In this document: piece after piece, positions 15,931 to 62,190 of the stretch
Position numbering within the stretch: position 1 is the first letter of the stretch
How the letters are laid out: every line of letters begins with the position of its first letter
Source of the DNA: Siphonodentalium dalli
Lineage: Eukaryota > Mollusca > Scaphopoda > Gadilida > Siphonodentaliidae
Direction: 5' to 3'
Length of the DNA stretch: 64,000 bases
Assembly: GCA_032622095.1 (NCBI GenBank)
Contig: CP136061.1
Location: forward strand, 52,401,762 to 52,465,761
Notes under the pieces: model-generated
Databases searched by the model: none
What the model saw: the letters and a program-made list of their open reading frames with translations, nothing else
What the model was told of the DNA's origin: nothing
Made by a program: the position numbers and the translations under genes

Positions 15931-18720
15931 TTAAAATAAAAATAATTGGTTAGAAGCGTACTTAATCATTATATGATGTAATATGACGAAACAATGACTT
16001 AATTTCATGGGGAGTGGCCCAGTGATACGGAGAATGGTTGGCATTCGATTGGAAATTATTAAATTCCATTTCATTAAAATTCCATTGAGAAGTGACGGAT
16101 CGACCCCACCAGAGCACACAATACAGATAATGTGATAAAACAAATACATAATTACATATAGTGGTGTATTGCATGGCCCGGCGATCGGACGACTCATCAT
16201 GGTTACGAGAAACGCCGAGTTTGTAAAATGAACTTTTGTACGGCGACAAAGATCTGAGTATTGAGACGATCAGAAAGTTCACTTGAGCCATGTAATAGGA
16301 TATCAATTGATATTCTGCTTGTTGGTAGCGCGGACATGAGCTCTATTCTCTCTTGAGTATACAGAGGACAATACAAAAAGAAGTGGTATGCTGATTCAAT
16401 TTCATAATCACCACAGGAACAGAACGGAGAATCTTCCAAGTGTAAACTATTCCAAGCACGTGTGGTTGACGGTAGAAATGTGTCCATATACGCATTCCTA
16501 TTACTGTCAGGTGGATGAATACTAGCATGCCTAAAATTATAACCAGACGACATAGAATCTGGTGGAATCATATTGGATAAATAGGATGGAGTTATTTTTC
16601 TTGTCATTTTGTAAAATTGAATTAATTTCTGTTTACTTCTTCTTGATGCAAGTGTTTCCCAACCAGTTTCAAGTAACGAGTTGAGGTCGCTAGTACTTCT
16701 AGTTGCCCCAGTTACAACTCGTACCATTTCGTACTGAATATCATCAATGCAATCGCTCATGTATTTCGGAATGTTATCCCAAACAGGGGATGCATATTCC
16801 AGTATTGGGCGAATGAATGAGACATACGGTTTCTAAAGATTTTCTGCTTAATCGGAACTTGTGTTTCTTTACAAGATTAACTCTCTTCCATGCCTTGTCG
16901 GGTATGCTACAAATGTGACTTTCCCATGAACCAGTAGTGTCAAATATAACTCCGAGATGTTTATGATTGCTTACTTTTGTTATTTGTGATCCAGCCATGA
17001 GTAGGGGTGGGTGAGCTATATTTAGGTTCTTCCTTGATACTATCAATGCTTCGGTCTTCAGGGGGTTGAACTTTACCAACCACTTACATGACCATTTGAC
17101 AATAGTGTCAATATCTTTATTAATTATTTCAGCGGCGAGGGTAGGGTTCTCAACACACAGATAAATTGAGGTGTCATCAGCAAAAAGAGGTATGTTTCAC
17201 ACTATATTTTTTGTTATATCGTTGATATAAATAAGAAATAAAAGGGGTCCTAATATGGACCCTTGTGGGATGCCTGCAGATACATATTTCCAGTCAGAGC
17301 TAGCGTTATCAATCAAAACTCTCTGTTGGCGAGATTTAAGATAGGAAGCTATTAGATTGTACAACTTGCCATTGATGCCCATACCAAACCTTATCAAATG
17401 CCTTACTGATGTCACAAAATATACAACGAACTTCCTTGCGATCGTCTAGAGACCTACTAATATAATCATACACGTCAGTAATTTGATACACAGCAGTATC
17501 TCCTAATTTAAACCCAGACTGGTGGACAGAGATTAAATTGTGATCATTAACGTGGGACTAAATGTATTTATAAAGGCACTTTTCATATGTTTTGGATAAG
17601 CAACATAATAGAGATATAGGACGATAGTTTGATACAAGACTAGGGTCACCGCTTTTGAAAACTGGAGTGATATTCGCTATTTTCCATTCACTTGGATAAT
17701 AACTATTTTTTGAGAAAATATTGAAAACATGAGCAAGGGGTTCACAGAGAGATAAAGCACAATTTTTCAAAACGCGGGGCTAATTTTGTCTGGGCCGCAA
17801 GCTTTAGATACTTTGAGATTTTTAAGAGCATTGAAAACATCGGTTGTCGAAATTTCTATCTCACTTATTGCTATATCAGAATTAGAATTTAGAGGAATAT
17901 AGTTCACATTTATGTCGTGTGAGGAATCATCGACTTTCGATATTTCACAAAAGTAATCATTCAAGGCGTTCGCTTTATCAGAGGACAGAGGGTGAAACCA
18001 AGTGACAGTTGTCAGACAGAAGTGGGGGTATGGCTTTACGATTATTTTGGAAAAGAATTTTTTGTAAATTTTTCCACCAGGTTGATTTATCAGAGTTTAT
18101 ATCATTTAAACTATGATCAATTTTCGTGTCGTAGTCAGACTTTGCTTTTCTCACCGCGTGTACACATTGATTGCGCACAGAGCGAAAATTTGCCCAAGAA
18201 GTCGAGGAATTAGTGTGTTTCGCTTTTTTATGTAGCCTGTTGCGTTTGAGCATTAGTTTCTTTATACTACATGTAAGCCAAGGGGGGCAATCCTTTTTTA
18301 TAGAAACAGTTTTACTTGGAATATATCTAGTGCAGGCATTTTGTATGAATTCTGTTAAATGGTCGGTAATCGTAGTCAAATTCTGATCGGAATAAATGCT
18401 TCTAAAATCCCAATTGAGGAAAGTATTTTTCATAGCTTCGTAGTCCGCTTTGTCATAATACCAGATTTGTCTTTTTGTCGACGAATGGTTCGATAATGGT
18501 AGCTCGATGTCGAGCGTAACTGGCGAATGGTACCTAACGCGGTCCTCAAAGAAAGTGCCAATCACCTCCGTGCCACTTATATACTCACAACAATTGGTAA
18601 GAACAGGTCCAGGATGGTAGATGACGTTTCAGTAAAATTTGTAGACGATGTCACCAATTGGGATACACCACAACGTGAGCATATACCGTTAATCTTTCCA
18701 TTGCTACCATCTTTATAATC
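15931..18720 (-). pseudogene. CR1/Jockey-type LINE, broken copy
   Basis: Minus-strand LINE ORF2 in at least six frame segments. From 5' to 3': the end of the endonuclease ('LVTSSTNFTETSSTILDL', near 18650); a linker with 'CPPWLTCSIKKLMLKRNRLH' (17978-18565); 'KACGPDKISPAF' (17767-17964); 'NITPVFKSGDPSLVSNYRPI' (17558-17770); the motif B region 'AGIPQGSILGPLLFLIYIND' (17197-17415); a post-catalytic stretch with 'HLGVIFDTTGSWESHI' (16774-17079); and a C-terminal part ending in a Cys/His knuckle 'CSCGDYEIESAYHFFLYCP' (16203-16760). The motif A and YADD regions are interrupted. The 'QGSILGPLLF' block is typical of CR1/Jockey-group enzymes. It is dead and older than the neighbour at 10-16 kb. Confidence 0.75.
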
Positions 18721-24770: not shown

Positions 24771-25900
24771 TTAAAATCCAACAATGTAATGTTGTACTGC
24801 TAGACTTAGTTTTGCATTGTCCATCGTATTTACACAAGTTGTTCCAAGCAATAGAGTTTCTAATGTTATATGGTGAATGCCAATCGTTTTTAGTTTATCC
24901 AATAATACATATCTTTCATCGGTGTATAAGTTGACAATCAAAGAAGAAATGATGATATTTTCAAGTGCACCACAGGAACATATCCGCGATTCAGCTATAT
25001 ACATGTAGTTACCATATTTATCAAAGTTCAAAATACTGCAGTTATTCCTCAATCTTGCTTGTAAGATATTTGGATAGCGTTTACCAATATTAAAATATGA
25101 GGGGGGTGGGGGAACTTGATACATCGGTATCAGTTCTCGATTAATCACACCGGGAGATCCGCATTTCATAACACTATCTGGTAAGGAGTTCCATTGGCTG
25201 ACCATGGTCGGGAAGAACGATTTATTGTAAAATGCCGCATTTCCACATATTTTGATATGAATCGGTGCGGGTATATGGACGGATAGTCAGTATTGCTGCC
25301 AAAATGTTCTCGAAGTATATAATTAACAAATTTTGGTGCGCCATCAGTCTCAATTCTGTGGAAATATTTCCATATATGTGCTTGTCGGCGTTGTCCCAGA
25401 CATTGCCACCCGAGTTCCATTAGGAGGAGTATCCAATCAGAGACCGACTGCGTTAAGCCTGAAACTATGCGAGCTTCTTCGATGTGAGTGTATACTTTAT
25501 ATTTCTAAGAAGAGATAAGCGACTTGGAACACGACTGGATATCTGGACATCCCAACTTAGATTAGAATGCAAATTCAAACCGAGGTATTTCTGCAATTGT
25601 GACTCTTCTAGACGACTTTGTCCAAATAAGATGGGTCTATTTAAATTTGGCTCGGTCTGGGGAGTGAACAGTTTTATGAACTTAGTCTTGGTAGGGTTAA
25701 AATTTACAATCCATTTCTGTGACCAGTTATTTATTTTTGTTATAGGTCTCTATTTAATTTAGCCACCATTTGCTCAGGGTCACAATCAGTCGTAGTTATA
25801 CATGTATCGTCAGCATATATTCGTGCCAGGGATTCTAGTTTATCGTGAATATCGTTCACGTAGATGAGAACAAGGAAATGGCTGAGTAGGTTTGTGTCTG
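24771..25900 (-). pseudogene. CR1-type LINE fragment, RT end to C-terminus
   Basis: Minus-strand LINE piece. The 5' part (25740-25900) carries motif B/C remains: 'LIYVNDIHDKLESLARIYAD', with 'YADDTCITTTD'. 25440-25740 reads the post-catalytic block in which 'KYLGLNLHSNLSW' sits. 25166-25420 holds 'ELGWQCLGQRRQAHIWKYFH'. 24771-25205 contains 'MVSQWNSLPDSVMKCGSP' and 'RICSCGALENI'. The order and blocks match those of the C-terminal half of CR1-like ORF2. The upstream part is missing: the sequence before 25900 becomes unrelated. Two or three frame changes are present. Confidence 0.7.
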
Positions 25901-26814
25901 TTGGCCATGGGTCCCGCTTCCATCCAACAGTCATATTCACGAGGCTAACTAACTTAAAAACATGTGATTTATTAGCCATTACGCACACGATTGGATAGCG
26001 AACGATACTTAATCGGGGATCACGGTAAGATAGCGATTGATATTTTATCGCAGTAACACGTGGCACGCGAGGTTAGGATTGAGGCTAGAATTATTGACGA
26101 AATAACGGAAATGTTTGAAGAAGTGATTTTAAAGAGATACATGTACCTATTTCGAAATGTAATCCTAATCTCGTGTGTCACCTGTAACAGTTTTTGCGTT
26201 TGGATATCAATCGCCATCTAACGATGAACCCCGATTAAGTATCTTTCGCTATCAAATCGTGTGCGTATTTTTGTAAGTCTATACAGTACTGACCGAGGCT
26301 CAATAGCCACGCGTTAGGGTGGATACACACATGCATGTAATGTCTGTATGTAAAATACATGTATTTTACATGGCCACACCAATAATTGACAAAATTAATC
26401 ACCTGAGCGCGAGAGGTCAATTTCACCAGTGAGTAGTTATAAGCCATTATCAAACAAACTGCCATCAAGAAATTTCAGGCCAGTCATAAACATGTCTTCT
26501 TTCATGGATGCCGAAATGAGTAATTCTTGTCTGATATATGTTGCTGTTTTTCACGAGTTATAATTCATTTCGAAAAGTGGATTAGAGCCGGTCGATTTTA
26601 TACTTGATTTGTGTCTGTCATTTCTTGGAAACTGGGTCATCCAAAACAGAAATAAAAGATGCAGAATTATTTTATAGGATGATACCGGCTTGTTGAGATT
26701 TCTCTGATAATTTGAGAGCGAGCTCATGTGATAACATTAATTCAATTGGGATTGCAAATATTTATAGCGCCAACAAATAATGCAGGTACAGCGTTGAAAT
26801 TAAAAAGAGTGACA

Positions 26815-39343: not shown

Positions 39344-42190
39344 TCATGAGTTGCATACTTGGTTTAGAGTTGATGGGTTTTGTGAATTCAAAATTTCGTT
39401 CATCATCATAATGTTTGCTTTTCCACGGTATTTTTCTGGGACGATTTTCTCCCTTATTTGTCTATATTTTGTACATTCTAGTAAATAATGGAACTCATCT
39501 CCAATCATTTTGTGTGTACATAGGGGACATTTTCTATCTTTATGATTTGTCCCATTCCATCTCCCAGTTTCAATTGGGAGGTTATGATTCGCTGTTCTGA
39601 GTCTACAGAATTCAGTTCTGTTTCTACTTTCTAGGGTATCCAAATATTTTTCAAAATTGATATCGTGTTTGAATATACGATATATCTTACCTCTGCTTGA
39701 GGTGTCACGTTCGGTTGCCCACTTAATTGTATAGTCCCTGATAAGGCTTCTTTTCACACAGTCTAAAAATTTGTCTGCACAGTGCAATTTACCAGCAGTC
39801 AATAATTGGGGTTGGTCGCAGCTAGACAAGATTTCTTTAATTTCTCTTGTCCACTTAAAGGTGCGTTCATTTGCTTCACTTAGAAGTTTCAGTGTTAACT
39901 CATAGAGGACCTTCCCATATCGTTCATTGGGCATGTTTATAACTTTCGACCAATATTTCAAAAGTCTTAATTTTATTGTGAGTTCCAATGGGAATCTTCC
40001 TGATTCACCATAAATCATATAATTGGGGGTTGATTGTTTCAAATTCAGGACATGTTTAAGAAACTTTTTGTGGACTTTTTCAAGGGTCTGGTTATCACCA
40101 TAACCCCAGACCTCACAGCCATACAGTAATATTGGTAGCACTTGGGTGTCAAATAGATCAAATTGGTTAGCTATTGAGAGGCAATTTACTCTGGATTTTT
40201 TAATCACGGTGTACATTGCATGGGTCCCTTTTGTTGCAAGTATATGTTTTGCTTCTGAATACGAACCAGATTTTGTGTGTTCAATTCCCAAGTAGTTGAA
40301 TTTTTTTAATACTTCAAGTTTAATACCGTTTAAATAGAAATGAGTGTTACGTGGTAAACTACGCTTGGACATTAGTAAGATTTTTGTTTTGTTTATATTC
40401 ACAGTAAGTTTCCAAGTCTTACAATACTTGCTAAAGGAATCTAGTTCCTTTTGTAATTTTTTTGGGGTCTCAGCCATAAGCACCGTATCATCCGCGTATA
40501 AAATTATAATCAATTTCATATAAGTATTCAATTCTTCTTCGATCTGATTTGATATTTTCTTGAGGCCTACAATATCCTCGTTTTCATAAACTTCTCTAGG
40601 TCATTAAGGAATAGAGAAAATAGGACCGGCGATAGATTCCCGCCCTGCCTCATTCCTGATAAGCATGGGAAGAATGCTGAATGTTCATTTCCTGACTTGA
40701 CAGAGGATTTGATGTTCTGATACATATTTCTAATGACCTGGAAGAAATTTCCATTGACATCATATGACAATAGTTTCTGCCATAGGCCATGTCTCCAAAC
40801 TCTATCGAATGCCTTCTCAAAATCTATAAAGGCACAGTAAAGGTTGGAATTTATATTCTTTGTCAATTCTGCTAACATATGCAATATGAATAAGTTATCA
40901 ACCGTCGAGTGATCCTTTCGGAACCCTGCTTGGTTTACCTGAAGAATGTCATTATTTTCAAAAAATTCATACAGCCTATTTGAGAGAATTTTTGTGAATA
41001 GTTTACCAAAACAACTTAGGATTGTGATAGGCCTATAGTTCTTTGGGTCCTTTGGGTCACCTTTATTTTTATAAATAGGGACAATGGTCCCTATACCCCA
41101 TGCATCTGGTATACATCCAGAGTTCAGTACATGGTTAAATACTCTAACATATATGTATAACAGTTTATCTGATGATGCTTTAAGATATTAATTTAATATC
41201 ATATCTTGTCCACAGGCTTTATTATTCTTCAAGCCATGCAGTGCATTTTTAAGTTCATCTATACTGATTGGTTTATTTAGTGATTCATTGCTATCTGAAA
41301 GCTCCATTTGAGTGGCAGTGTCATTGCTATCATGTACTGCACTATTTAACTCTCGGTAATATTCTTCAAATTTGCCTATTTCTATGGGTGGTGCCTTGTT
41401 TTTCACGCGGTTATTTAGAGAGGCCCAGAATTTCTTTGGGTTTTTATATTTCATGTGTGCTATTTCTTTGGATGCTTTCTCTCTATGTTTTCCTATAGCA
41501 GTATTCATTTCTCTTTTATATTCACTTGATTTGTCCTGCATATACTGCTTCATTTCTCCACGGGGGGATTTTTTTATAGCGTCTAACGGCCTTCCTATAC
41601 TCTTTTCTTGCAGACCAGCATGATTTTGTAAACCATGGTTTATTATTGCGGTGTGTTCTTCGACTCTTTTTGTTTACTGGTCTGCTGAAGGTATTATCAG
41701 CTGCAGTAAATAGCAAGTTTGATACCATGATCACCACTTGGTTAATATCCGGGGATCTAGATGTGTCGCTTTCGATCTGATCAAGGAGTAAATTTGCATT
41801 ATTAATGCTTCTTGGATCTAGGTTCAGTGTAAATTCACTGGACTTTCCCTCTTCCCAATTTCTAATAGTTTTTTTTACTATTTGTATTGGTATGTGGTAC
41901 CGGTACCGGGTTGGCAATGGGAAGAGTAATTTCCGTTGTAATGGGGCAATGTTCGTCGGAATATAAGTTACAGAATGTTCCAACTGTGAATTGTTTTAAC
42001 AATTGAAGAGCTTCAGCCGAGCATACCATATAATCAACTGTAGATGCGTCGCGGCAGGTGAGTTTTCCAACACCAAAATCGTTTCCGACTTGTCCATTAG
42101 CGATGAACAATTCATTACATTTACAAAATTGTAAAAGTTTTTGTCCCTGTGAGTTTTTGACTCTGTCCTGGTTAAACCACATGCATTGTG
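39344..42190 (-). pseudogene. LINE ORF2, relative of the 10-16 kb element
   Basis: Minus-strand, 5'-truncated within the endonuclease. 41862-42182 is the endonuclease end ('GKLTCRDASTVDYMVCSA', 'LYSDEHCPITTE'). 41522-41983 is the linker, with 'NNKPWFTKSCWSARKEY'. 41188-41553 has 'NKACGQDMI'. 40885-41187 reads 'NYRPITILSCFGKLFTK' in broken frames. 40567-40884 carries motif A 'AFIDFEKAFDRVW' and motif B 'GMRQGGNLSPVLFSLFLND'. 39344-40531 has 'ILYADDTVLMAETP', the thumb, a 'KYWSKVINMPNERYGKVLYE' block, and a CCHC knuckle 'CPLCTHKMIGDEFHYLLEC'. The same blocks in the same order occur at 10962-14409, so the two belong to one family or sister families. At least five frame breaks. Confidence 0.8.
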
Positions 42191-53818: not shown

Positions 53819-54210
53819 CTTTTTTTGTTGTTGGCATATATTAATATTATAAGAAATTTCATTTTTAATATATATTTTTTCATTTTAAAATAATTATTTC
53901 ACCCATCAATGCTCGATCCGACATTGAGGATAGCTGAATATTATATCTATATCATATATGGTCAGTGATATGACCTTCAAGTGTGGTACTTCTATGTTTG
54001 GGGTGCGTAACACTCAATCCTATGTCGCACAATCAACCTCTTCAAATGGTGACCGAATTAAGTCACTTGAACCATTTTATATTCTCAACTGCCATATTAA
54101 TATGAGGACGGGAATCAGGGCATTCATATAGTGACTAAGTGAGTTATAGTATAGTTTGTTAGCGATTTTGATCATGACAACCCGGACAAAAGCGCCATCG
54201 TTTGATATTG
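53819..54210. other. Host intron, left of the palindromic element
   Basis: A+T-rich intron sequence with the short repeat shared with 541-595 at about 54104-54150. It ends at the target duplication 54211-54216. No gene. Confidence 0.4.
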
Positions 54211-54216
54211 TGTAGA
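54211..54216. repeat. Target-site duplication TGTAGA, left copy
   Basis: TGTAGA lies directly before the first base of the element and again at 61707-61712 directly after its last base. A 6-bp duplication is the hallmark of Polinton/Maverick integration. Confidence 0.8.
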
Positions 54217-54617
54217 AGTAGTACGTGTGGCTCGTTAGACCCACATCTAAAAATAGATTTTTTGGGGTTAAAATTGTTTGTACTAAAATATTCCCAAAAG
54301 TTGTTTTTTTCAAAACCCAAAATTTTTTTTCAAAATTTTAAATTTTTTTTTTTTTTTAAATCTCACCAAATTTATAATGAGTTTTCGGTCTCTTACCCAA
54401 ATATCTGCCGACTATTAAATGTCGAATGTTTTTTAAATTATTTGCGTGTAATATCTTTTGTTATTTTGTTCAAACAAATTTAAAATATTTTTCATGAAAC
54501 TCTGTTAATTTTATTAATCGATGTTTAGAAATAGCTTTATACCAATTATATGTGTATGGACTGGTCCGAGTCACTGTAATTTTGGACATTGACACTATAG
54601 GTATGAATGCATACTTC

Positions 54618-54795
54618 AAAAATTTAAAAAACTTTCAAAAACTTTCAAAAACTTTCAAAAATTTCAAAAACTTCAAAAATTTCAAAAATTTCAAAAATTT
54701 CAGAAACTTAAAAAATTTAAAAAACTTCAAAAACTTAAAAAATTTAAAAAACTTCAAAAAATTCAAAAATTTCAAAAGATTTCCAAAATTTCAAT
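54618..54795 (+). repeat. A/T microsatellite near the left terminus
   Basis: Runs of 'tttcaaaaac' and 'ttaaaaaa' units encode a spurious Asn-Phe-Lys repeat. The mirrored version lies at 61150-61318. Confidence 0.9.
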
Positions 54796-54914
54796 ATAAT
54801 GGTGGACAATACACTCACGATGTGACAACATATACAGACATAGGCATAGTGTTATACAGTCTTCTATGTACCAACGCTATGACATCATTAATGGGGGATA
54901 ATGCCCGCATGGTG

Positions 54915-55075
54915 TGGAATGTTAAAGTGACACGATGTAAGGGACGTTATGTAATATTGGTGTGTGAATATTAAAGGAGCACAATGCGCTCTAAAGGGAC
55001 ACACGGCACTCATTTTGAATGCATGTTAAAGAAACACAATACACACGCAGTGGGTGAAAGTTAAAATGACACAGA
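54915..55075 (+). promoter_or_regulatory. Iterated subterminal motif TTAAAG--ACAC
   Basis: Five versions of a 'ttaaag(t/g/a)(g/a)(a/g)cac' motif start at 54922, 54971, 54991 (first base C), 55026 and 55061. They are mirrored in the right arm (about 60870-61030). Iterated short motifs just inside terminal repeats are common protein-binding sites in transposons. That role is inference. Confidence 0.4.
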
Positions 55076-55209
55076 GCAATATTTAAACTTCAAATTTTAG
55101 GGCTCTTAATGTACCATTTATGTATCGTTTCTCGCTCTACAATCTCCCCTCCCCACTTATAGATATATAACGAAGACGAGAATAACATGTTGATGAAGTT
55201 TATTGAAAT

Positions 55210-55785
55210 TTAATCATTGTCTGAATCTTCGACCGTTAGAGTTATTTCTAAGAGTTTCTTGAATTTTCTCATCGCTTCATCTGCAGCCCATTCATTATTA
55301 TATCCGTGTTTGGTCAGTTTGACCATTTTCTTCATGATCATGTTATGTATGGGTGATGTTTTCAATCGATACTGGTATTCTATTAATCGTCTATAACTTT
55401 TGAGAAAGAGAGCAAACTCTGTGTCGATGGTAGCCTCTTTTCCCGACATGCTCTCATCTCCCGACATGCTCTCTTCTCCTTTCGCATCATTGGTGATGCG
55501 TTTCATCATACTTTTGAATGTGTCCATCTCGTTGACACATCGCGCAGCTTTCTTAAGACCGAATACCGTTCTACTACCGACGACATTATCATCTTCTGAA
55601 TCTGACGAAGCGGTTCTAGATTCAGTTGAAGATGAACGGGGAACGATATCAGATTCTAGGTCATCGGTATCTTCTCCGAAGAAATCTGTTTTTGTCTCGG
55701 ACATAACTCCGTGTTTAATCTGTTTATGTCTTTGTAGATTGTAGTTCGTCGATAAAATATTTCCGCATAAATGACACCTGTGCAT
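55210..55785 (-). CDS. C2H2 zinc-finger protein with acidic middle (191 aa), intact copy
   Basis: One finger at the N-terminus: Cys4, Cys7, His20, His25 (CX2CX12HX4H) in 'MHRCHLCGNILSTNYNLQRH'. Residues 30-75 are Ser/Asp/Glu-rich ('DDLESDIVPRSSSTESRTAS'). Residues 120-185 are helical and basic, with 'YRRLIEYQYRLKTSPIHNMI' and 'AADEAMRKFKKLLEI'. Short finger proteins with such a helical tail are encoded by many Polintons; the role is unknown, perhaps DNA binding in transcription or packaging. A TTATAAGAG box lies ~40 bp before the ATG, and an AATAAA lies 6 bp after the stop (55199-55204). The mirrored copy at 60164-60739 has a nonsense codon. Confidence 0.75.
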   Translation of the reverse strand: MHRCHLCGNILSTNYNLQRHKQIKHGVMSETKTDFFGEDTDDLESDIVPRSSSTESRTASSDSEDDNVVGSRTVFGLKKAARCVNEMDTFKSMMKRITNDAKGEESMSGDESMSGKEATIDTEFALFLKSYRRLIEYQYRLKTSPIHNMIMKKMVKLTKHGYNNEWAADEAMRKFKKLLEITLTVEDSDND

Positions 55786-55966
55786 TATCGCGAATTATTG
55801 GAAGAACGATCACTCTTATAAGTAGCGATAAAAAGAGAGAATATGGTGTGGCATACAACCGTCGCGTTAAGAGTACGTTCGTCCCGGGTCTAGATCTTTG
55901 ACCGCCGGTGATTCAATTAATGCCAATTTATCAGTATGGTACTCTATGTATTCATTCATGATTTGG
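55786..55966. promoter_or_regulatory. Intergenic promoter region with TTATAAGAG box (left arm)
   Basis: On the minus strand 'acttataagagtgatcg' lies about 40 bp upstream of the 191-aa gene. The same TTATAAGAG core is found upstream of the 107-aa gene ('ttttataagaggcgat', about 56353-56368). Both are mirrored in the right arm. A shared core promoter box is inferred. Confidence 0.45.
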
Positions 55967-56290
55967 CTAATCGTATGACACTTTTCTTTTCATTTTCTTC
56001 TTATTATTAGACAAACCTCCAGCTAACACTCTCTTGTTGGTTTGTTTGGACGCTTTACGTGTGTTTGTCAACTTATTTGCTGCAACTTCGGCCTTAGCCA
56101 TTTCAATGGCTTGAGCGATGGGCGTCGCTACGTTAATATGTGGTTTTAGAACGTCTTCTTCACTATCACTATTTTTAGTTCTGTCAATAAGGTATCGACC
56201 CTTATTATCTGGCGTTAACTTCCCATCAAGCATGTCTCTGAAATGTTTTCTCCACGTTTCAATATCTGCTGGAATATACGGGATCGACAT
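55967..56290 (-). CDS. 107-aa acidic/basic protein (left arm)
   Basis: Starts 'MSIPYIPADIETWRKHFRDM'. Residues 41-47 are acidic, and residues 72-104 are strongly basic ('NKRVLAGGLSNNKKKMKRKV'), like a nucleic-acid-binding or nuclear-localising tail. The block between ('TPIAQAIEMAKAEVAANKL') is helical. The W--HF--M start followed by a 'TPIAQ--EMAK-E' helix recalls a small protein repeatedly found in Polinton gene sets, but this is a memory-based impression. It differs from the right-arm copy at 7 of 107 residues, all within the first 62. No cysteine. Confidence 0.7.
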   Translation of the reverse strand: MSIPYIPADIETWRKHFRDMLDGKLTPDNKGRYLIDRTKNSDSEEDVLKPHINVATPIAQAIEMAKAEVAANKLTNTRKASKQTNKRVLAGGLSNNKKKMKRKVSYD

Positions 56291-56471
56291 GTTTCTTCAA
56301 ATGTAGTGTACAAGTCACTCTTTTTTTCTGCATTTTATTTTAGAAAGTTTATCGCCTCTTATAAAAATCGATTATCTGGATATTTATTAATCGAATCGTC
56401 GCTAGTCAGGTACAGATAATAATTATCCATATGACTATAGTTTCTAAAAAAAAACAATTCAAAGAGAATCA

Positions 56472-56942
56472 TTATTCTTCTTCTCTTATAGTTTTATTGA
56501 TATCACTGAATATATGCTTGAAGATTGACCACTGGTTCAAATTTAACGGAATACCTATAATCGTCGGAGTGTTATTCACAACTCGCCTAATGTCTGTATA
56601 AATGTGTCCTTGATTATTACATAATGTAACAGTAATGTTTGATCGTGTTGTCCACTTTTTCACGAAAACACACGGGTGTTGTTCGTAATCATTGGGGTGT
56701 GACATATTAGTATGAAGTAATTCATAGTCAACCGACTCACGCGGTATCTTCTTTGGAACTAAAATAAATGGTAGTGACACAGTGATTACCATAATAGTAA
56801 TTCCTATCCATTTAAGGAGATTCATATGTAGACGACCACGTTCTGTTTGAAACGTATTCGTCAAGGTACCTGTTCTATTATCCATGATTGTAATTGTTCT
56901 CGTGTACAACTTACTCTTATTAATTGTGATATCTGGCGACAT
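56472..56942 (-). CDS. Single-span membrane protein (156 aa), intact copy
   Basis: Residues 43-62 ('LLKWIGITIMVITVSLPFIL') form one transmembrane segment preceded by a Lys/Arg-rich N-terminus, so a type II orientation is likely. The ~94-residue outer part has two cysteines (91 and 108), which could form a disulfide, and two N-glycosylation sequons (at 79 and 102). The C-terminus is acidic. No known family recognised. In a virus-like element it could be a virion membrane or assembly protein; that is speculation. The mirrored copy at 59002-59472 has UAG as its second codon. Confidence 0.7.
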   Translation of the reverse strand: MSPDITINKSKLYTRTITIMDNRTGTLTNTFQTERGRLHMNLLKWIGITIMVITVSLPFILVPKKIPRESVDYELLHTNMSHPNDYEQHPCVFVKKWTTRSNITVTLCNNQGHIYTDIRRVVNNTPTIIGIPLNLNQWSIFKHIFSDINKTIREEE

Positions 56943-57093
56943 CAGACTCTAAAATCCATGAATTAAATTTGTCTGGCCATGAATGCCAAATGCACCATGA
57001 TAGTTATCGATGTCAATAATGCGTTTCGTTGAGATCTTGATTGAGTATGCACCAATCAATTAACAATGACACAGAATATCACCCAAAGTATAT

Positions 57094-57432
57094 TCAAAGG
57101 GGGTGAGAAAAAGAGCAAATGAGCAAAAAAAATGAGCAAAAAAATGAGCAAATGAGCAAAACAATGAGCAAACAAATGAGCAAATGAGCAAAAAAATGAG
57201 CAAATGAGCAAAATATGAGCAAATGAGCAAAATAAATGAGCAAATGAGCAAAAAAATGAGCAAATAAGTGTTGTTGTTGTTGTTGTTGTGGCTGATGATA
57301 CTGTTGTTGTTGTTGTTGCTGATGATACTGTTGTTGTTGTTGTTCTGAAGGCTTGTGTTTAACTTTGATATGACGTTTCAAACTATCTTGCCAAGCATAG
57401 ACACTTGAGCACTGTTCACATTGATACTTCAT
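57094..57432 (-). CDS. C2H2/poly-Q protein, copy 1 (left arm, 112 aa)
   Basis: One finger, Cys5, Cys8, His21, His26 (CX2CX12HX4H), in 'YQCEQCSSVYAWQDSLKRHI'. A Gln/His-rich linker from CAA/CAG repeats follows (about residues 33-55). Then comes a hydrophobic tail created by a 'tttgctcatttgctcatttt' microsatellite. That repeat lacks stops in every frame, so the tail may be a repeat-driven extension rather than selected protein. Tandem copy 2 lies 677 bp away at 57750-58109, and a mirrored copy at 58447-58668. Probable DNA-binding protein. Confidence 0.65.
   Translation of the reverse strand: MKYQCEQCSSVYAWQDSLKRHIKVKHKPSEQQQQQYHQQQQQQQYHQPQQQQQQHLFAHFFAHLLIYFAHLLIFCSFAHFFAHLLICLLIVLLICSFFCSFFLLICSFSHPL
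57109..57265 (-). repeat. (TTTGCTCAT)n microsatellite, copy 1
   Basis: Units 'tttgctcat' with variable T-run length on the minus strand. The same repeat recurs at 57775-57950 and, on the plus strand, 58620-58835. All three reading frames are open and hydrophobic (Phe-Ala-His-Leu-Leu-type). Confidence 0.95.
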
Positions 57433-57770
57433 TTTCCTATATAATCAGTGAAATCGAGCGTTCTTCTATGAACCTATATTTATATAGAACAGAAACAAGG
57501 GCAACGTGGTGGACTAGTTAACTAGTTCAGGCTGTCGTTCACAACTTCTCTTCGTGTTGTTTGTACTGGATACAAATTTATCACATTGGCTACAATACAA
57601 CCTACCTATCCAAATGTCAATGCAATTATGAGTGATTTCAATATGAGCACTCTATTATATAGATATGTGTAACCTGGTGACATGATGAAATCGATTGTGA
57701 TACAAAGCTAAAGTACCGACCATAGGGTAGATACAAAGCTAAAGTACCGCTATAGAGCAGAAGCTAACCG
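57433..57770 (-). promoter_or_regulatory. Upstream region of C2H2/poly-Q copy 1
   Basis: Near-identical to the loop 58114-58442. It contains the palindrome ACTAGTTAACTAGT (57513-57526) and two copies of the 20-mer gatacaaagctaaagtaccg at 57699-57718 and 57730-57749, 31 bp apart. TATA-rich stretch 'ctatatttatatag' near 57474-57488. Presumed promoter. Confidence 0.5.
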
Positions 57771-58109
57771 CTCTGAGCAAAAAAATGAGCAAATGAGCAA
57801 AAAAAATGAGCAAATGAGCAAAAAAAATGAGCAAATAAGCAAAAAAATGAGCAAAAAAATGAGCAAATGAGCAAAAAAATGAGCAAATGAGCAAAAAATG
57901 AGCAAATGAGCAAAACAAATGAGCAAATGAGCTGAAAAATGAGCAAATGAGTGTTGTTGTTGTTGTTGTGGCTGATGATACTGTTGTTGTTGTTGTTGCT
58001 GATGATACTGTTGTTGTTGTTCTGAAGGCTTGTGTTTAACTTTGATATGACGTTTCAAACTATCTTGCCAAGCATAGACACTTGAGCACTCTTCACATTG
58101 ATACTTCAT
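57750..58109 (-). CDS. C2H2/poly-Q protein, copy 2 (left arm, 119 aa)
   Basis: Tandem duplicate of copy 1 with a 677-bp period. It has the same finger (Cys5, Cys8, His21, His26), the Gln/His-rich linker is slightly shorter, and a microsatellite-encoded hydrophobic tail follows. The start codon faces the loop, so copy 2 (leftward) and copy 3 at 58447 (rightward) are divergent genes sharing one 329-bp intergenic region. The final residues come from a short stretch at the duplication joint. Confidence 0.65.
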   Translation of the reverse strand: MKYQCEECSSVYAWQDSLKRHIKVKHKPSEQQQQYHQQQQQQQYHQPQQQQQHSFAHFSAHLLICFAHLLIFCSFAHFFAHLLIFLLIFLLICSFFLLICSFFLLICSFFCSERLASAL

Positions 58110-58113
58110 TTTC

Positions 58114-58442
58114 CTATATAATCAGTGAAATCGAGCGTTCTTCTATGCACCTATATTTATATAGAACAGAAACAAGGGCAACGTGGTGGACTAGTTAACT
58201 AGTTCAGGCTGTCGTTCACAACGTCTCTTCGTGTTGTTTGTACTGGATACAAATTTATCACATTGGCTACAATACAACCTACCTATCCAAATGTCAATGC
58301 AATTATGAGTGATTTCAATATGAGCACTCTATTATATAGATATGTGTAACCTGGTGACATGATGAAATCGATTGTGATACAAAGCTAAAGTACCGACCAT
58401 AGGGTAGATACAAAGCTAAAGTACCGCTATAGAGCAGAAGCT
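58114..58442. promoter_or_regulatory. Loop of the palindrome, shared divergent promoter region
   Basis: The only unmirrored part of the element. It contains the palindrome ACTAGTTAACTAGT (58190-58203), a TATA-rich stretch near 58151-58165, and the 20-mer gatacaaagctaaagtaccg twice (58376-58395 and 58407-58426, period 31). The same features stand in 57433-57770. It separates two start codons facing away from each other. Regulatory role inferred from position and the exact repeats. Confidence 0.5.
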
Positions 58443-58446
58443 GAAA

Positions 58447-58668
58447 ATGAAGTATCAATGTGAAGAGTGCTCAAGTGTCTATGCTTGGCAAGATAGTTTG
58501 AAACGTCATATCAAAGTTAAACACAAGCCTTCAGAACAACAACAACAACAGTATCATCAGCAACAACAACAACAACAGTATCATCAGCCACAACAACAAC
58601 AATACTCATTAGCTAATTTTTGTGCTCATTTGCTAAAATTTTTTGCTCATTTTTTGCTCATTTGCTAA
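58447..58668 (+). CDS. C2H2/poly-Q protein, copy 3 (right arm, 73 aa)
   Basis: Mirrored version of copies 1 and 2 with the same CX2CX12HX4H finger and a Gln/His-rich linker. The microsatellite here has point changes ('gctaattt', 'gctaaaattt') that create an earlier stop, so the hydrophobic tail is only ~20 residues. This suggests that the conserved functional part is the finger plus the Gln-rich linker. Confidence 0.65.
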   Translation: MKYQCEECSSVYAWQDSLKRHIKVKHKPSEQQQQQYHQQQQQQQYHQPQQQQYSLANFCAHLLKFFAHFLLIC

Positions 58669-58835
58669 TTTTTTTGCTCATTTGCTAATTTTTTTTGCTC
58701 ATTTGCTCATTTGCTCATTTGTTTGCTCATTTGCTCATTTTTTTGCTCATTATTTTGCTCATTTGCTCATTTTTTTGCTCATTTGCTCATTTTTTAGCTC
58801 ATTTGCTCATTTTTTTGTTGCTCATTTGCTCTTTT
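58620..58835 (+). repeat. (TTTGCTCAT)n microsatellite, right arm
   Basis: Mirrored version of the repeat at 57109-57265. An 81-codon open frame (58643-58888) consists almost only of this repeat and is not counted as a gene. Confidence 0.95.
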
Positions 58836-59001
58836 TCTCACCCCCTTTGAATATACTTTGGGTGATATTCTGTGTCATTGTTAATTGATTGGTGCATACT
58901 CAATCAAGATCTCAACGAAACGCATTATTGACATCGATAACTATCATGGTGCATTTGGCATTCATGGCCAGACAAATTTAATTCATGGATTTTAGAGTCT
59001 G

Positions 59002-59472
59002 ATGTAGCCAGATATCAAAATTAATAAGAGTAAGTTGTACACGAGAACAATTACAATCATGAATAATAGAACAGGTACCTTGACGAATACGTTTCAAACA
59101 GAACGTGGTCGTCTACATATGAATCTCCTTAAATGGATAGGAATTACTATTATGGTAATCACTGTGTCACTACCATTTATTTTAGTTCCAAAGAAGATAC
59201 CGCGTGAGTCGGTTGACTATGAATTACTTCATACTAATATGTCACACCCCAATGATTACGAACAACACCCGTGTGTTTTCGTGAAAAAGTGGACAATACG
59301 ATCAAACATTACTGTTACATTATGTAATAATCAAGGACACATTTATACAGACATTAGGCGAGTTGTGAATAACACTCCGACGATTATAGGTGTTCCGTTA
59401 AATTTGAACCAGTGGTCAATCTTCAAGCATATATTCAGTGATATCAATAAAACTATAAGAGAAGAAGAATAA
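59002..59472 (+). pseudogene. Single-span membrane protein, right-arm copy with early stop
   Basis: Mirror of 56472-56942. The start codon is followed directly by UAG (59005-59007), where the left copy has a Ser codon. The next in-frame ATG is at 59059; starting there would keep the transmembrane segment and the outer domain with both cysteines. Only three residue differences in the rest, so the break is recent or tolerated by use of the downstream start. Confidence 0.65.
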
Positions 59473-59651
59473 TGATTCTCTTTGAATTGTTTTTTTTTAG
59501 AAACTATAGTCATATGGATAATTATTATCTGTACCTGACTAGCGACGATTCGATTAATAAATATCCAGATAATCGATTTTTATAAGAGGCGATAAACTTT
59601 CTAAAATAAAATGCAGAAAAAAAGTGACTTGTACACTACATTTGAAGAAAC

Positions 59652-59975
59652 ATGTCGATCCCGTATATTCCAGCAGATATTGAAACGTGGAGAAAACATT
59701 TAAGAGACATAATTGATGGGAAGTTAACGCCAGATAATAAGGGTCGATACTTTATTGACAGAACTAAAAATAGTGATAGTGAAGAAGACGTTATAAAACC
59801 ACATATTAACGTAGTGACGCCCATCGCTCAAACGATTGAAATGGCTAAGGCCGAAGTTGCAGCAAATAAGTTGACAAACACACGTAAAGCGTCCAAACAA
59901 ACCAACAAGAGAGTGTTAGCTGGAGGTTTGTCTAATAATAAGAAGAAAATGAAAAGAAAAGTGTCATACGATTAG
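59652..59975 (+). CDS. 107-aa acidic/basic protein (right arm)
   Basis: Mirror of 55967-56290 with the same length, intact. Seven residue changes, all in the N-terminal 62 residues and all non-synonymous; the basic tail is identical. That clustering could reflect relaxed constraint or gene conversion of the 3' part. TTATAAGAG box near 59580-59590, about 70 bp before the ATG. Confidence 0.65.
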   Translation: MSIPYIPADIETWRKHLRDIIDGKLTPDNKGRYFIDRTKNSDSEEDVIKPHINVVTPIAQTIEMAKAEVAANKLTNTRKASKQTNKRVLAGGLSNNKKKMKRKVSYD

Positions 59976-60163
59976 CCAAATCATGAATGAATACATAGAG
60001 TACCATACTGATAAATTGGCATTAATTGAATCACCGGCGGTCAAAGATCTATACCCTAGACCCGGGACGAATGTACTCTTAACGCGACGGTTGTATGCCA
60101 CACCATATTCTCTCTTTTTATCGCTACTTATAAGAGTGATCGTTCTTCCAATAATTCGCGATA

Positions 60164-60739
60164 ATGCACAGGTGTCATTTATGCGGAAAGATTTTATCGA
60201 CGAACTACAATCTACAAAGACATAAACAGATTAAACACGGAGTTATGTCCGAGACAAAAACAGATTTCTTCGGAGAAGATACCGATGACCTATAATCTGA
60301 TATCGTTCCCCGTTCATCTTCAACTGAATCTAGAACCGCTTCGTCAGATTCAGAAGATGATAATGTCGTCGGTAGTAGAACGGTATTCGGTCTTAAGAAA
60401 GCTGCGCGATGTGTCAACGAGATGGACACATTCAAAAGTATGATGAAACGCATCACCAATGATGCGAAAGGAGAAGAGAGCATGTCGGGAGATGAGAGCA
60501 TGTCGGGAAAAGAGGCTACCATCGACACAGAGTTTGCTCTCTTTCTCAAAAGTTATAGACGATTAATAGAATACCAGTATCGATTGAAAACATCACCCAT
60601 ACATAACATGATCATGAAGAAAATGGTCAAACTGACCAAACACGGATATAATAATGAATGGGCTGCAGATGAAGCGATGAGAAAATTCAAGAAACTCTTA
60701 GAAATAACTATAACGGTCGAAGATTCAGACAATGATTAA
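60164..60739 (+). pseudogene. C2H2 protein with acidic middle, right-arm copy with nonsense codon 44
   Basis: Mirror of 55210-55785. Codon 44 (60293-60295) is UAA where the left copy has a Glu codon, a single G-to-T change. The zinc finger lies before the stop and is complete (one Asn-to-Lys change); the acidic and helical parts lie after it. The rest stays open to the same end, followed by AATAAA at 60745-60750. Reads as recent loss of one of two copies. Confidence 0.7.
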
Positions 60740-61149
60740 ATTTCAATAAACTTCATCAACATGTTATTCTCGTCTTCGTTATATATCTATAAGTGGGGAG
60801 GGGAGATTGTAGAGCGAGAAACGATACATAAATGGTACATTAAGAGCCCAAAAATTTGAAGTTTAAATATTGTCCTGTGTCATTTTAACTTTCACCCACT
60901 GCGTGTGTATTGTGTTTCTTTAACAATCATTCAAAATGAGTGCCGTGCGTCCCTTTAGAGCGCATTGTGCTCCTTTAATATTCACACACCAATATTACAT
61001 AACGTCCCTTACATCGTGTCACTTTAACATTCCACACCATGCGTGCATTATCCCCCTTTAATTATGTCATAGCATTGGTACATAGAAGATTGTATAACAC
61101 TATGCCTATGTCTGTATATGTTGTCACATCGTGAGTGTATTGTCCACCA

Positions 61150-61318
61150 TTATATTGAAATTTTTGGAATTTTTTTTAATTTTTGAAGTTTTTTTAATTT
61201 TTGAAGTTTTTTAATTTTTTGAAATTTTTGAAGTTGTTGAAATTTTTGAAAGTTTTTGAAAGTTTTTGAAAGTTTTTGAAAGTTTTTGAAATTTTTGAAG
61301 TTTTTGAAATTTTTGAAG
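61150..61318 (-). repeat. A/T microsatellite near the right terminus
   Basis: Mirror of 54618-54795; unit number and phase differ between arms. Confidence 0.9.
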
Positions 61319-61706
61319 TATGCATTCATACCTATAGTGTCAATGTCCAAAATTACAGCGACTCGGACCAGTCCATACACATATAATTGGTATAAAGCTA
61401 TTTCTAAACATCGATTAATAAAATTAACAGTTTCATGAAAAATATTTAAAATTTGTTTGAACAAAAATAACAAAAGATATTACACGCAAATAATTTAAAA
61501 AACATTCGACATTTAATAGTCGGCAGATATTTGGGTAAGAGACCGAAAACTCATTATAAATTTTTTGAGATTTAAAAAAAAACAAAAATTTAAACAAAAA
61601 TTTGGGTTTTGAAATGTTTTTTTTTTTGGGAATATTTTAGTACAAACAATTTTAATCCCAAAAAATCTATTTTTAGATGTGGGTCTAATGAGCCACACGT
61701 ACTACT

Positions 61707-61712
61707 TGTAGA
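61707..61712. repeat. Target-site duplication TGTAGA, right copy
   Basis: Second copy of the 6-bp duplication, directly after the terminal CGTACTACT. Confidence 0.8.
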
Positions 61713-62190
61713 CATGTATGTGTGGTTCAATTCTAGTCCGGGAAACCGACATTTTGAGGTTTATTTCTTCTCATCAGACAAGATGGCGTCCACCATGTCC
61801 GTCGTTTGTTCAGACGGATCACTAAGTCAGTTTGATGCATGAAAATGTTATCATATTATACAAATGTATATATTTTTGTGAAGCTAAGATATAATGCCAT
61901 ATTCTTAGGGCAAAATTGGAACTCCCGTCCAAAACTAGTTTCCGGACAGCAATCCAAAACGTGTTGTGAAAGACTCTATCGCTTTGATTTCAATTGACTG
62001 ACTGAAAATAACAAAAATATTTCGGGAATATATTGCATGCTAAGCGTGCGTTATAGAATAGGTCTTCCAAGAATATTTCAGTTATAACTGCATAAAATTA
62101 ATCAAAACAAGTTATTTCTTGGAAATGAAAATTCGGGGAAAACTTTGCTTTGCTGGATCGAAATTCATAATTTCGTCATTGTGAACATAC
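61713..62190. other. Host intron, right of the palindromic element
   Basis: No feature recognised. An open stretch reads across the element end ('NSSPGNRHFEVYFFSSDK' at 61727-61780) but has no splice or family support. Confidence 0.4.

Follow-up and report, generated by a model that had tools for sequence, protein, structure and literature searches.

A probable palindromic satellite of Polintons in the genome of the scaphopod Siphonodentalium dalli

How a gene-bearing palindrome comes to lie in an animal chromosome is the question raised by an element of 7,490 base pairs (bp) in a 64,000-nucleotide stretch of the scaphopod mollusc Siphonodentalium dalli (assembly GCA_032622095.1, contig CP136061.1, positions 52,401,762 to 52,465,761 of the forward strand). 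The whole of this stretch is called the window here, and its features are given in positions counted from its first letter. The original prediction described the element as Polinton-like and proposed two origins, namely a Polinton whose very long, gene-bearing terminal repeats had lost their centre, or a fold-back event during protein-primed replication. The analysis presented here favours an account that extends the second of these, in which the element is probably a non-autonomous, palindromic satellite of Polintons that is mobilized in trans; movement by the enzymes of a helper is suggested by the copy number and the ends of its family.

The boundaries of the element (54217-61706) are marked by exact TGTAGA duplications at 54211-54216 and 61707-61712, and its termini, AGTAGTACGTG...CACGTACTACT, carry the motif AGTAGT...ACTACT; the length, the exact duplications and the AG...CT termini that had been predicted are thus borne out by coordinates and end sequences. 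The left arm (54217-57436, forward strand) pairs with the right arm (58443-61706, reverse strand) at 98.2% identity (3,117 of 3,175 aligned columns), which is far above chance, and outside low-complexity DNA the arms differ at 35 of 2,792 sites (1.25%). A low-complexity array of ~9-bp units (54611-54795) is mirrored on the right side. The terminal ~400 bp (54217-54617, forward strand) are common to other copies in the genome, mostly at 85-95% identity, and to a full-length Polinton (89%). No second copy of the element was found within the window, and an Rfam search of the window gave no match. The heptamer CCCGGAC (54181-54187) and its reverse complement GTCCGGG (61736-61742) each lie exactly 23 bp outside the target duplication, which may reflect a palindromic target or chance.

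It is by its ends that the element is tied to the Polintons, also named Mavericks. Vertebrate Mavericks are reported to make 6-bp duplications, to end most often in (AGT)2//(ACT)2 and to have terminal repeats 46-1,447 bp long (PMC8097293). The window element has the 6-bp duplication and the AGTAGT...ACTACT motif, and its ends are common with those of an element in the same genome that encodes both a family B DNA polymerase (PolB) and an integrase (L018+L038; 89% identity over the terminal 401 bp). This relative is ~16.2 kb long (C1:108247962-108264168, of which 2.7 kb inside lie outside the sequence analysed), has terminal repeats of 1,025 bp at 97% identity and is flanked by the duplication TATTAA. 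Four frames lie on one strand, namely one of 487 amino acids (aa) that matches nothing in Pfam, PolB (DNA_pol_B_2, 3.7e-47; at 0.01 its sequence matches nothing in PDB), a coactivator resembling PC4 (1.2e-13) and a TATA-binding protein (TBP, 1.1e-30); the integrase lies on the opposite strand. In the Polintons of this genome, PC4 and TBP frames stand between the polymerase and the capsid module (L018:8161-9308; L037:1804-2951), and no paper in the literature surveyed mentions PC4 together with Polintons. No whole core gene (protein-primed PolB, integrase, packaging ATPase, protease or capsid) was found in the window element, nor does it show the layout of an autonomous Polinton, in which terminal repeats measuring hundreds of bp enclose a unique centre. 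What it does have is the profile of a non-autonomous, Polinton-derived element: the ends of a possible helper, no enzymes, and several copies with target duplications of their own. The predicted Polinton kinship is upheld by the ends, the 6-bp duplications and this PolB- and integrase-bearing relative. Among the relatives that share its termini there are Polinton core genes and further palindromes, and no core genes of an unrelated kind.

Copies were sought throughout the 2.23-Gb genome (9 contigs) using a 290-bp terminus query, for which the best 40 of 1,330 first-look candidates, including the window's own two ends, were scored. These 40 hits represent 34 places, 28 of which were examined. 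Both ends were in view in 19 elements, namely that of the window, a 17.2-kb element on C9, L018+L038, L010, L013, L014, L015, L020, L021, L022, L024, L025, L026, L028, L031, L033, L034, L035 and L036, and nine loci were open or composite (L009, L016, L017, L019, L023, L027, L029, L030 and L032). Fourteen of the 19 are flanked by an exact 6-bp duplication, of a sequence particular to each element (in C9 and L018+L038 it was read from the flanks); five of six bases agree in L022 and L034, L026 has no duplication, and in L033 and L035 it is unreadable. The left end of L026 is degenerate, the broken left end of L033 was placed by hand, the sequence of L035 ends ~11 bases short of the element end, and L024 holds three terminus copies.

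Palindromes of 5-17 kb account for 12 of the 19 elements; an element is counted as palindromic here if, leaving aside the outer 1 kb at each end, 40% or more of its DNA pairs with its mirror, a threshold chosen afterwards. Eleven of 17 elements lie above it (window 82%, L013 89%, L015 97%, L020 100%, L022 72%, L026 79%, L031 88%, L033 49%, L034 69%, L035 100% and L036 44%) and six below (L024 37%, L025 20%, L021 14%, and L010, L014 and L028 0%); the C9 element is the twelfth palindrome, and L018+L038 is not palindromic. Symmetry extends across all 8,579 bp of L020 (98.9%) and across the 9.9 kb of L035 (96.3%), and at least three gene sets are found among the palindromes of the genome.

The sequence of the copies also records what has happened to the window element since its insertion. 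When its 35 arm differences were polarized by other copies, 19 were assigned to the right arm and 13 to the left, with three unresolved; the idea that only the right arm had decayed, raised by a 24:5 bias of arm differences, was dropped on this result. Among the polarized changes, the left arm has nine AT-to-GC and no GC-to-AT, and the right arm four and 13, respectively (Fisher p 0.0005, post hoc). Of 2,108 sites, none shows a change common to both arms against an 80% majority of other copies (canonical-type loci excluded). The element must thus have been symmetrical and typical of its family on arrival, and divergence since then amounts to ~0.5-0.7% per arm, ages being expressed here as divergence only. 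Trees of the 191-, 107- and 156-aa gene regions have a star-like shape and little support for their inner branches, and the best matches between palindrome copies reach 98-100% in the 191-aa region; the window copy is a member of a young, star-like family.

The centres, too, speak for spread as palindromes. One chimeric centre junction is common to L014, L015, L021, L025, L026, L033 and L035, and comprises the end of a 329-bp segment, ~25 bp, and then a 132-bp piece of the 191-aa gene; where the centres were read (L015, L026, L033 and L035), CAA and CCG/CGG repeats follow at the axis. A different centre region is common to L013, L020, L022, L029 and L032, with CCG/CGG repeats visible at the axis in L020 and L022. 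The 329-bp segment is fully mirrored in L022 and L035, where the axis lies further in and is rich in CCG/CGG repeats, partly mirrored in L015, L026 and L034, and unmirrored in the window.

The simple layout of the original prediction, two arms around a 329-bp loop, consequently survives in its mirrored arms and not in its loop. In the left side of the window element, 57130-57765 recurs in tandem as 57812-58442 (97.2%; forward strand), each unit of ~0.65 kb containing a repeat tract, a finger gene and the 329-bp segment, which in the second unit (58114-58442) is the supposed loop. Through this duplication there are three copies of the finger gene and two of the 329-bp segment, and the gap between the best-matching arms measures 1,006 bp, or 329 bp if taken from the nearest finger copy. 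As other copies mirror the segment wholly or partly and have their own axis further in, it was dropped as the original fold-back loop. The centre junction of the window element (58442/58443) is absent from all other sampled copies and would mark the site of the lost original axis. Long palindromes are unstable and loss of the axis is expected; that of the window element was probably lost secondarily, with the 329-bp segment as a remnant, and off-centre remains are likewise seen in L013, L031 and L034.

Which genes does the family carry? Within 54796-57107 there are three long open frames of 191, 156 and 107 aa, above chance, since simulations under two models, with 1,000 stretches each, yielded no frame of 191 aa. 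All three are intact in the left arm only. The first (55210-55785, reverse strand) encodes a single-finger C2H2 protein with a weak zf-C2H2 match below the curated cut-off, and is likewise open in some other copies; its right-arm counterpart (60164-60739, forward strand) is broken by a premature stop. The 107-aa protein (55967-56290, reverse strand; open right-arm copy at 59652-59975, forward strand) has an LAGG-L motif before a basic tail, and in larger elements is encoded just upstream of the putative capsid gene. In this position and motif it resembles a virion protein cleaved by adenain; a motif of the LAGG-L type arises in 4% of shuffled versions. The 156-aa protein (56472-56942, reverse strand; right-arm copy with an early premature stop at 59002-59472, forward strand) has, by eye, one hydrophobic segment, and its C-terminal half is weakly PC4-like (Pfam 0.07; PDB 1.5-1.9; 33% over 46 residues against the elements' clear PC4 gene, 1e-4 for one pair), and its predicted structure (mean predicted local distance difference test score 33.5) gave no usable fold. 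The fourth gene encodes a C2H2 and glutamine-rich protein, whose first copy (57094-57432, reverse strand; zf-H2C2_5, 9e-7) enters a TGAGCA repeat tract; the second (57750-58109, reverse strand; 5e-7) belongs to the tandem duplication and the third (58447-58668, forward strand) to the right arm. Of the four small genes first described in each arm, those of the left arm are intact; in the right arm two genes are stopped, and the finger gene occurs three times in all.

Part of this gene content was evidently drawn from larger Polintons. The block 55901-57000 (reverse strand) matches the interiors of L017, L023 and the C9 element at 85-90% identity and in the same gene order, running from the tail of the integrase through the 156- and 107-aa genes to the head of the capsid gene; the larger elements have ~0.27 kb extra between the 156- and 107-aa genes, and in the left arm of C9 the 156-aa gene is gapped. 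Of a Polinton integrase, the C-terminal 22 residues are preserved at 56923-56988 (reverse strand) and again in the right arm at 58956-59021 (forward strand); of the putative capsid protein, the N-terminal 20 residues remain at 59983-60042 (forward strand), so that the claimed absence of core genes is correct for whole genes and incorrect for fragments. In seven comparisons of the window with larger elements, the 107- and 156-aa genes have a ratio of nonsynonymous to synonymous divergence (Ka/Ks) of 0.36-0.59, with Ks at 0.12-0.25; the genes were thus maintained during some or all of this period, in one of the two lineages or in both. The few changes seen between palindrome copies show no such constraint. 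Neither the 191-aa gene nor the finger gene was met in L017, L018+L038, L023 or C9 (9.9 kb each of L017 and L023, and L018 minus its internal 2.7 kb).

A sister type of palindrome, seen in L013 and L020, carries in one arm of each an open frame of 568 and 566 aa, respectively, with an A32-type ATPase domain (2e-6, above the curated cut-off) and weak C2H2 matches before and after it; the opposite arms hold a shortened or split version. The domain shares 33% identity with the ATPase found in the larger elements, and the gene would encode, to judge by these matches, a finger-tagged paralogue of the packaging ATPase. In L017, L018+L038, L023 and C9 the query meets only the canonical ATPase, over 33% of its length. 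The best 40 of 1,046 first-look candidates for the gene are 99-100% identical and fall in 33 loci, seven of which hold divergent pairs 2.0-2.9 kb apart. A related A32-type frame occurs together with the 191-aa gene in L035.

The largest palindrome, at C9:9102997-9120175, is 17.2 kb long with the duplication AACAAT, and was met as an inverted pair ~11 kb apart among the best 40 of 347 first-look candidates scored for an integrase query. Its arms of ~8 kb (98.6, 99.5 and 99.1% identity in the outer pieces, 97.8% in the inner part) surround 859 unmirrored bp. They carry integrase frames with rve matches of 5.7e-13 and 1.6e-13, one of which also gave a chromodomain (8.4e-7), as well as a P-loop ATPase frame whose Pfam matches are all weak (33% identity to the A32-type domain of L013 and L020, 1e-30), homologues of the 107- and 156-aa genes (the latter partly deleted in one arm), TBP, PC4, an adenain-like protease (Peptidase_C5, 0.0017, below the curated cut-off) and a putative capsid gene, so named from its place and length only, whose product had no Pfam or PDB match. 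No PolB was found in this element. Its centre (C9c) is contiguous in L018 (7165-8030, 92%), starting 421 bp beyond the PolB frame; C9 is thus a mirrored integrase half of a Polinton, which is what fold-back of that half would leave. At C8:138232601-138259377, opposite-strand integrase copies lie 25.6 kb apart (same best 40 of 347); these may be two Polintons or one larger inverted structure.

Several observations weigh against the satellite interpretation. The 40 terminus hits are those nearest to the window's own, and the sample is biased to its subfamily. L018+L038 is the sole PolB-bearing copy among those seen, and the Ks of 0.12-0.25 means that an immediate parent was not found among the elements sampled. 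Searches with the 191-, 156- and 107-aa proteins found no relative, and the finger-ATPase had none among viral contigs; scans of these contigs with the three proteins, the terminus pattern and PolB also gave no match. The arms themselves tell a mixed story: in the 191-aa tree they are sisters in four of nine elements (L015, L031, L034 and L035) and not in the window, L009, L022, L033 and L036, and in the 107-aa tree they are sisters in L015, L022 and L031 and not in the window, where the arms are nearer to other copies in this region (up to 99.2%) than to each other (97.8%). Sister arms would fit repeated fold-back or homogenization too. Mosaics also occur, with window-type arms around the other centre in L022 and 191-aa plus A32-type genes in L035, and the spread was accordingly not simply clonal. 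The history must include exchange between copies, homogenization of arms or some repeated fold-back.

It is on this last point that the foremost rival stands, according to which each palindrome is made anew when a strand folds back during protein-primed copying of a larger element, and the dimer inserts once and dies there. The sister arms of some elements, the mirrored Polinton half on C9 and the existence of several gene sets all agree with it; it is hard to square with two centres each common to several copies, with palindromes holding genes that were not seen in the larger elements sampled, or with near-identical finger-ATPase pairs recurring at many loci (best 40 of 1,046), and we regard it as unlikely. 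The fold-back dimer of the original prediction is retained as far as the inverted dimer goes, and set aside as a single accident with the original loop still in place, the family having multiplied. Far less probable is the loss of the entire centre from a Polinton whose very long terminal repeats bore genes: the arms resemble long terminal repeats and do contain genes, yet the sole full-length relative found has repeats of ~1 kb in which none of the window's genes was found, and in L020 and L035 symmetry reaches the axis with no unique centre left. The expectation of full-length elements with the four genes inside their terminal repeats is likewise not borne out by this one relative. An assembly artefact can be practically dismissed, since, although read chimeras are known to yield long palindromes, the symmetry here does not extend past the element, which is bounded by a direct 6-bp duplication and lies between dissimilar flanks, each arm has separate mutations, and the architecture recurs elsewhere with other duplications. 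Equally negligible is a different DNA transposon: IS3EU/GingerRoot and Ginger2 also make 6-bp duplications or use 6-bp targets, but their described ends are TA..TA, occasionally TG..CA (IS3EU/GingerRoot, PMC10045372), or TGTNR (Ginger2, PMC2836005), in place of AGTAGT..ACTACT, and the relative with related ends has PolB.

For a trans-mobilized satellite, the following course can be envisaged. A one-ended Polinton fragment would first have been turned by fold-back into an inverted dimer with a replication origin and an integrase-binding end at both tips; such a head-to-head dimer, unlike a one-ended fragment, would be copyable because each tip would carry the end that polymerase and integrase recognize. 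Since then, palindromes would have been copied by the protein-primed polymerase of the full-length element and inserted by its integrase, giving rise to the 6-bp duplications, and would have swapped parts among themselves. A displaced strand could fold into a hairpin with a double-stranded end at its base, which may aid copying and keep the arms alike. In the window copy, an off-centre deletion would have removed the axis and left the 329-bp segment, and one 0.65-kb unit would have been duplicated in tandem. Packaging is a guess prompted by the finger-ATPase and the captured 107-aa gene. Tentatively, and with rather less confidence than in the satellite itself, a lineage of Polinton-virus satellites with palindromic genomes may be imagined, in which helper polymerase copies the inverted dimer, helper integrase inserts it, and the sister type's own DNA-binding, finger-tagged ATPase paralogue draws helper capsids to palindromic DNA, the near-perfect 5-10-kb chromosomal copies opening by loss of the axis.

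Some loci stand apart. L016 has two same-strand terminus copies 7.6 kb apart (L016:1004 and L016:8628) with the same 12 bp after each, probably a tandem duplication or a head-to-tail product. The composite L009:625-5473 consists of an arm, an inverted partial arm and a further terminus in direct orientation. L010:315-5790, of 5.5 kb and non-palindromic, combines a 191-aa gene of the palindrome kind with a 156-aa gene closer to the version in the larger elements, and looks like a recombinant between satellite and Polinton. Elsewhere in the window, open frames at 39347-40600, 25743-26072 and 16777-17196 show, by eye, YADD or FADD stretches of the kind found in reverse transcriptases; the three are probably remains of long interspersed nuclear elements.

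Polintons link transposons and viruses, and whether they still act as viruses is debated. A satellite family with genes captured beside the capsid gene and a packaging-ATPase paralogue of its own would, if true, be an indirect sign of helper functions acting in trans in this host; its young sister copies offer material for testing such function. It would also indicate that a protein-primed replicon can shed parts, head-to-head dimers rescuing one-ended fragments, and the many near-perfect chromosomal palindromes, with axes intact or lost, form a natural series for an old question, the survival of long palindromes in chromosomes.

Defective inverted dimers and non-autonomous transposons are already known kinds; palindromic Polinton satellites were described in none of the titles and abstract openings among the matches listed, in a survey of mainly open-access journal papers. 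With Polintons/Mavericks the window element shares 6-bp duplications, (AGT)2//(ACT)2 ends and a same-genome relative with PolB and integrase on opposite strands (PMC8097293). It is unlike them in being palindromic, in lacking any whole core gene and in that its repeat makes up nearly the whole element. Non-autonomous DNA transposons, such as foldback elements and those resembling miniature inverted-repeat transposable elements, keep their ends, lose their enzymes and reach high copy numbers; the window family likewise keeps its ends and has multiplied without enzymes, but it differs in its several protein genes, some captured from a larger element, and in the mirror symmetry of intact copies right to the axis. 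In the inverted-dimer defective genomes of adenoviruses, derivatives of linear yeast plasmids and the snap-back forms of parvoviruses, one end is doubled head to head, an origin lies at both tips and a helper is needed. Those genomes of protein-primed or hairpin replicons are products of the laboratory or of infection, whereas the palindromes described here are inserted in the genome with target duplications and have multiplied. Virophages and phage satellites have ends in common with their helper and genes of their own; the present family similarly combines the ends of a possible helper with genes that may be its own, and its sister type adds a paralogue of the packaging ATPase.

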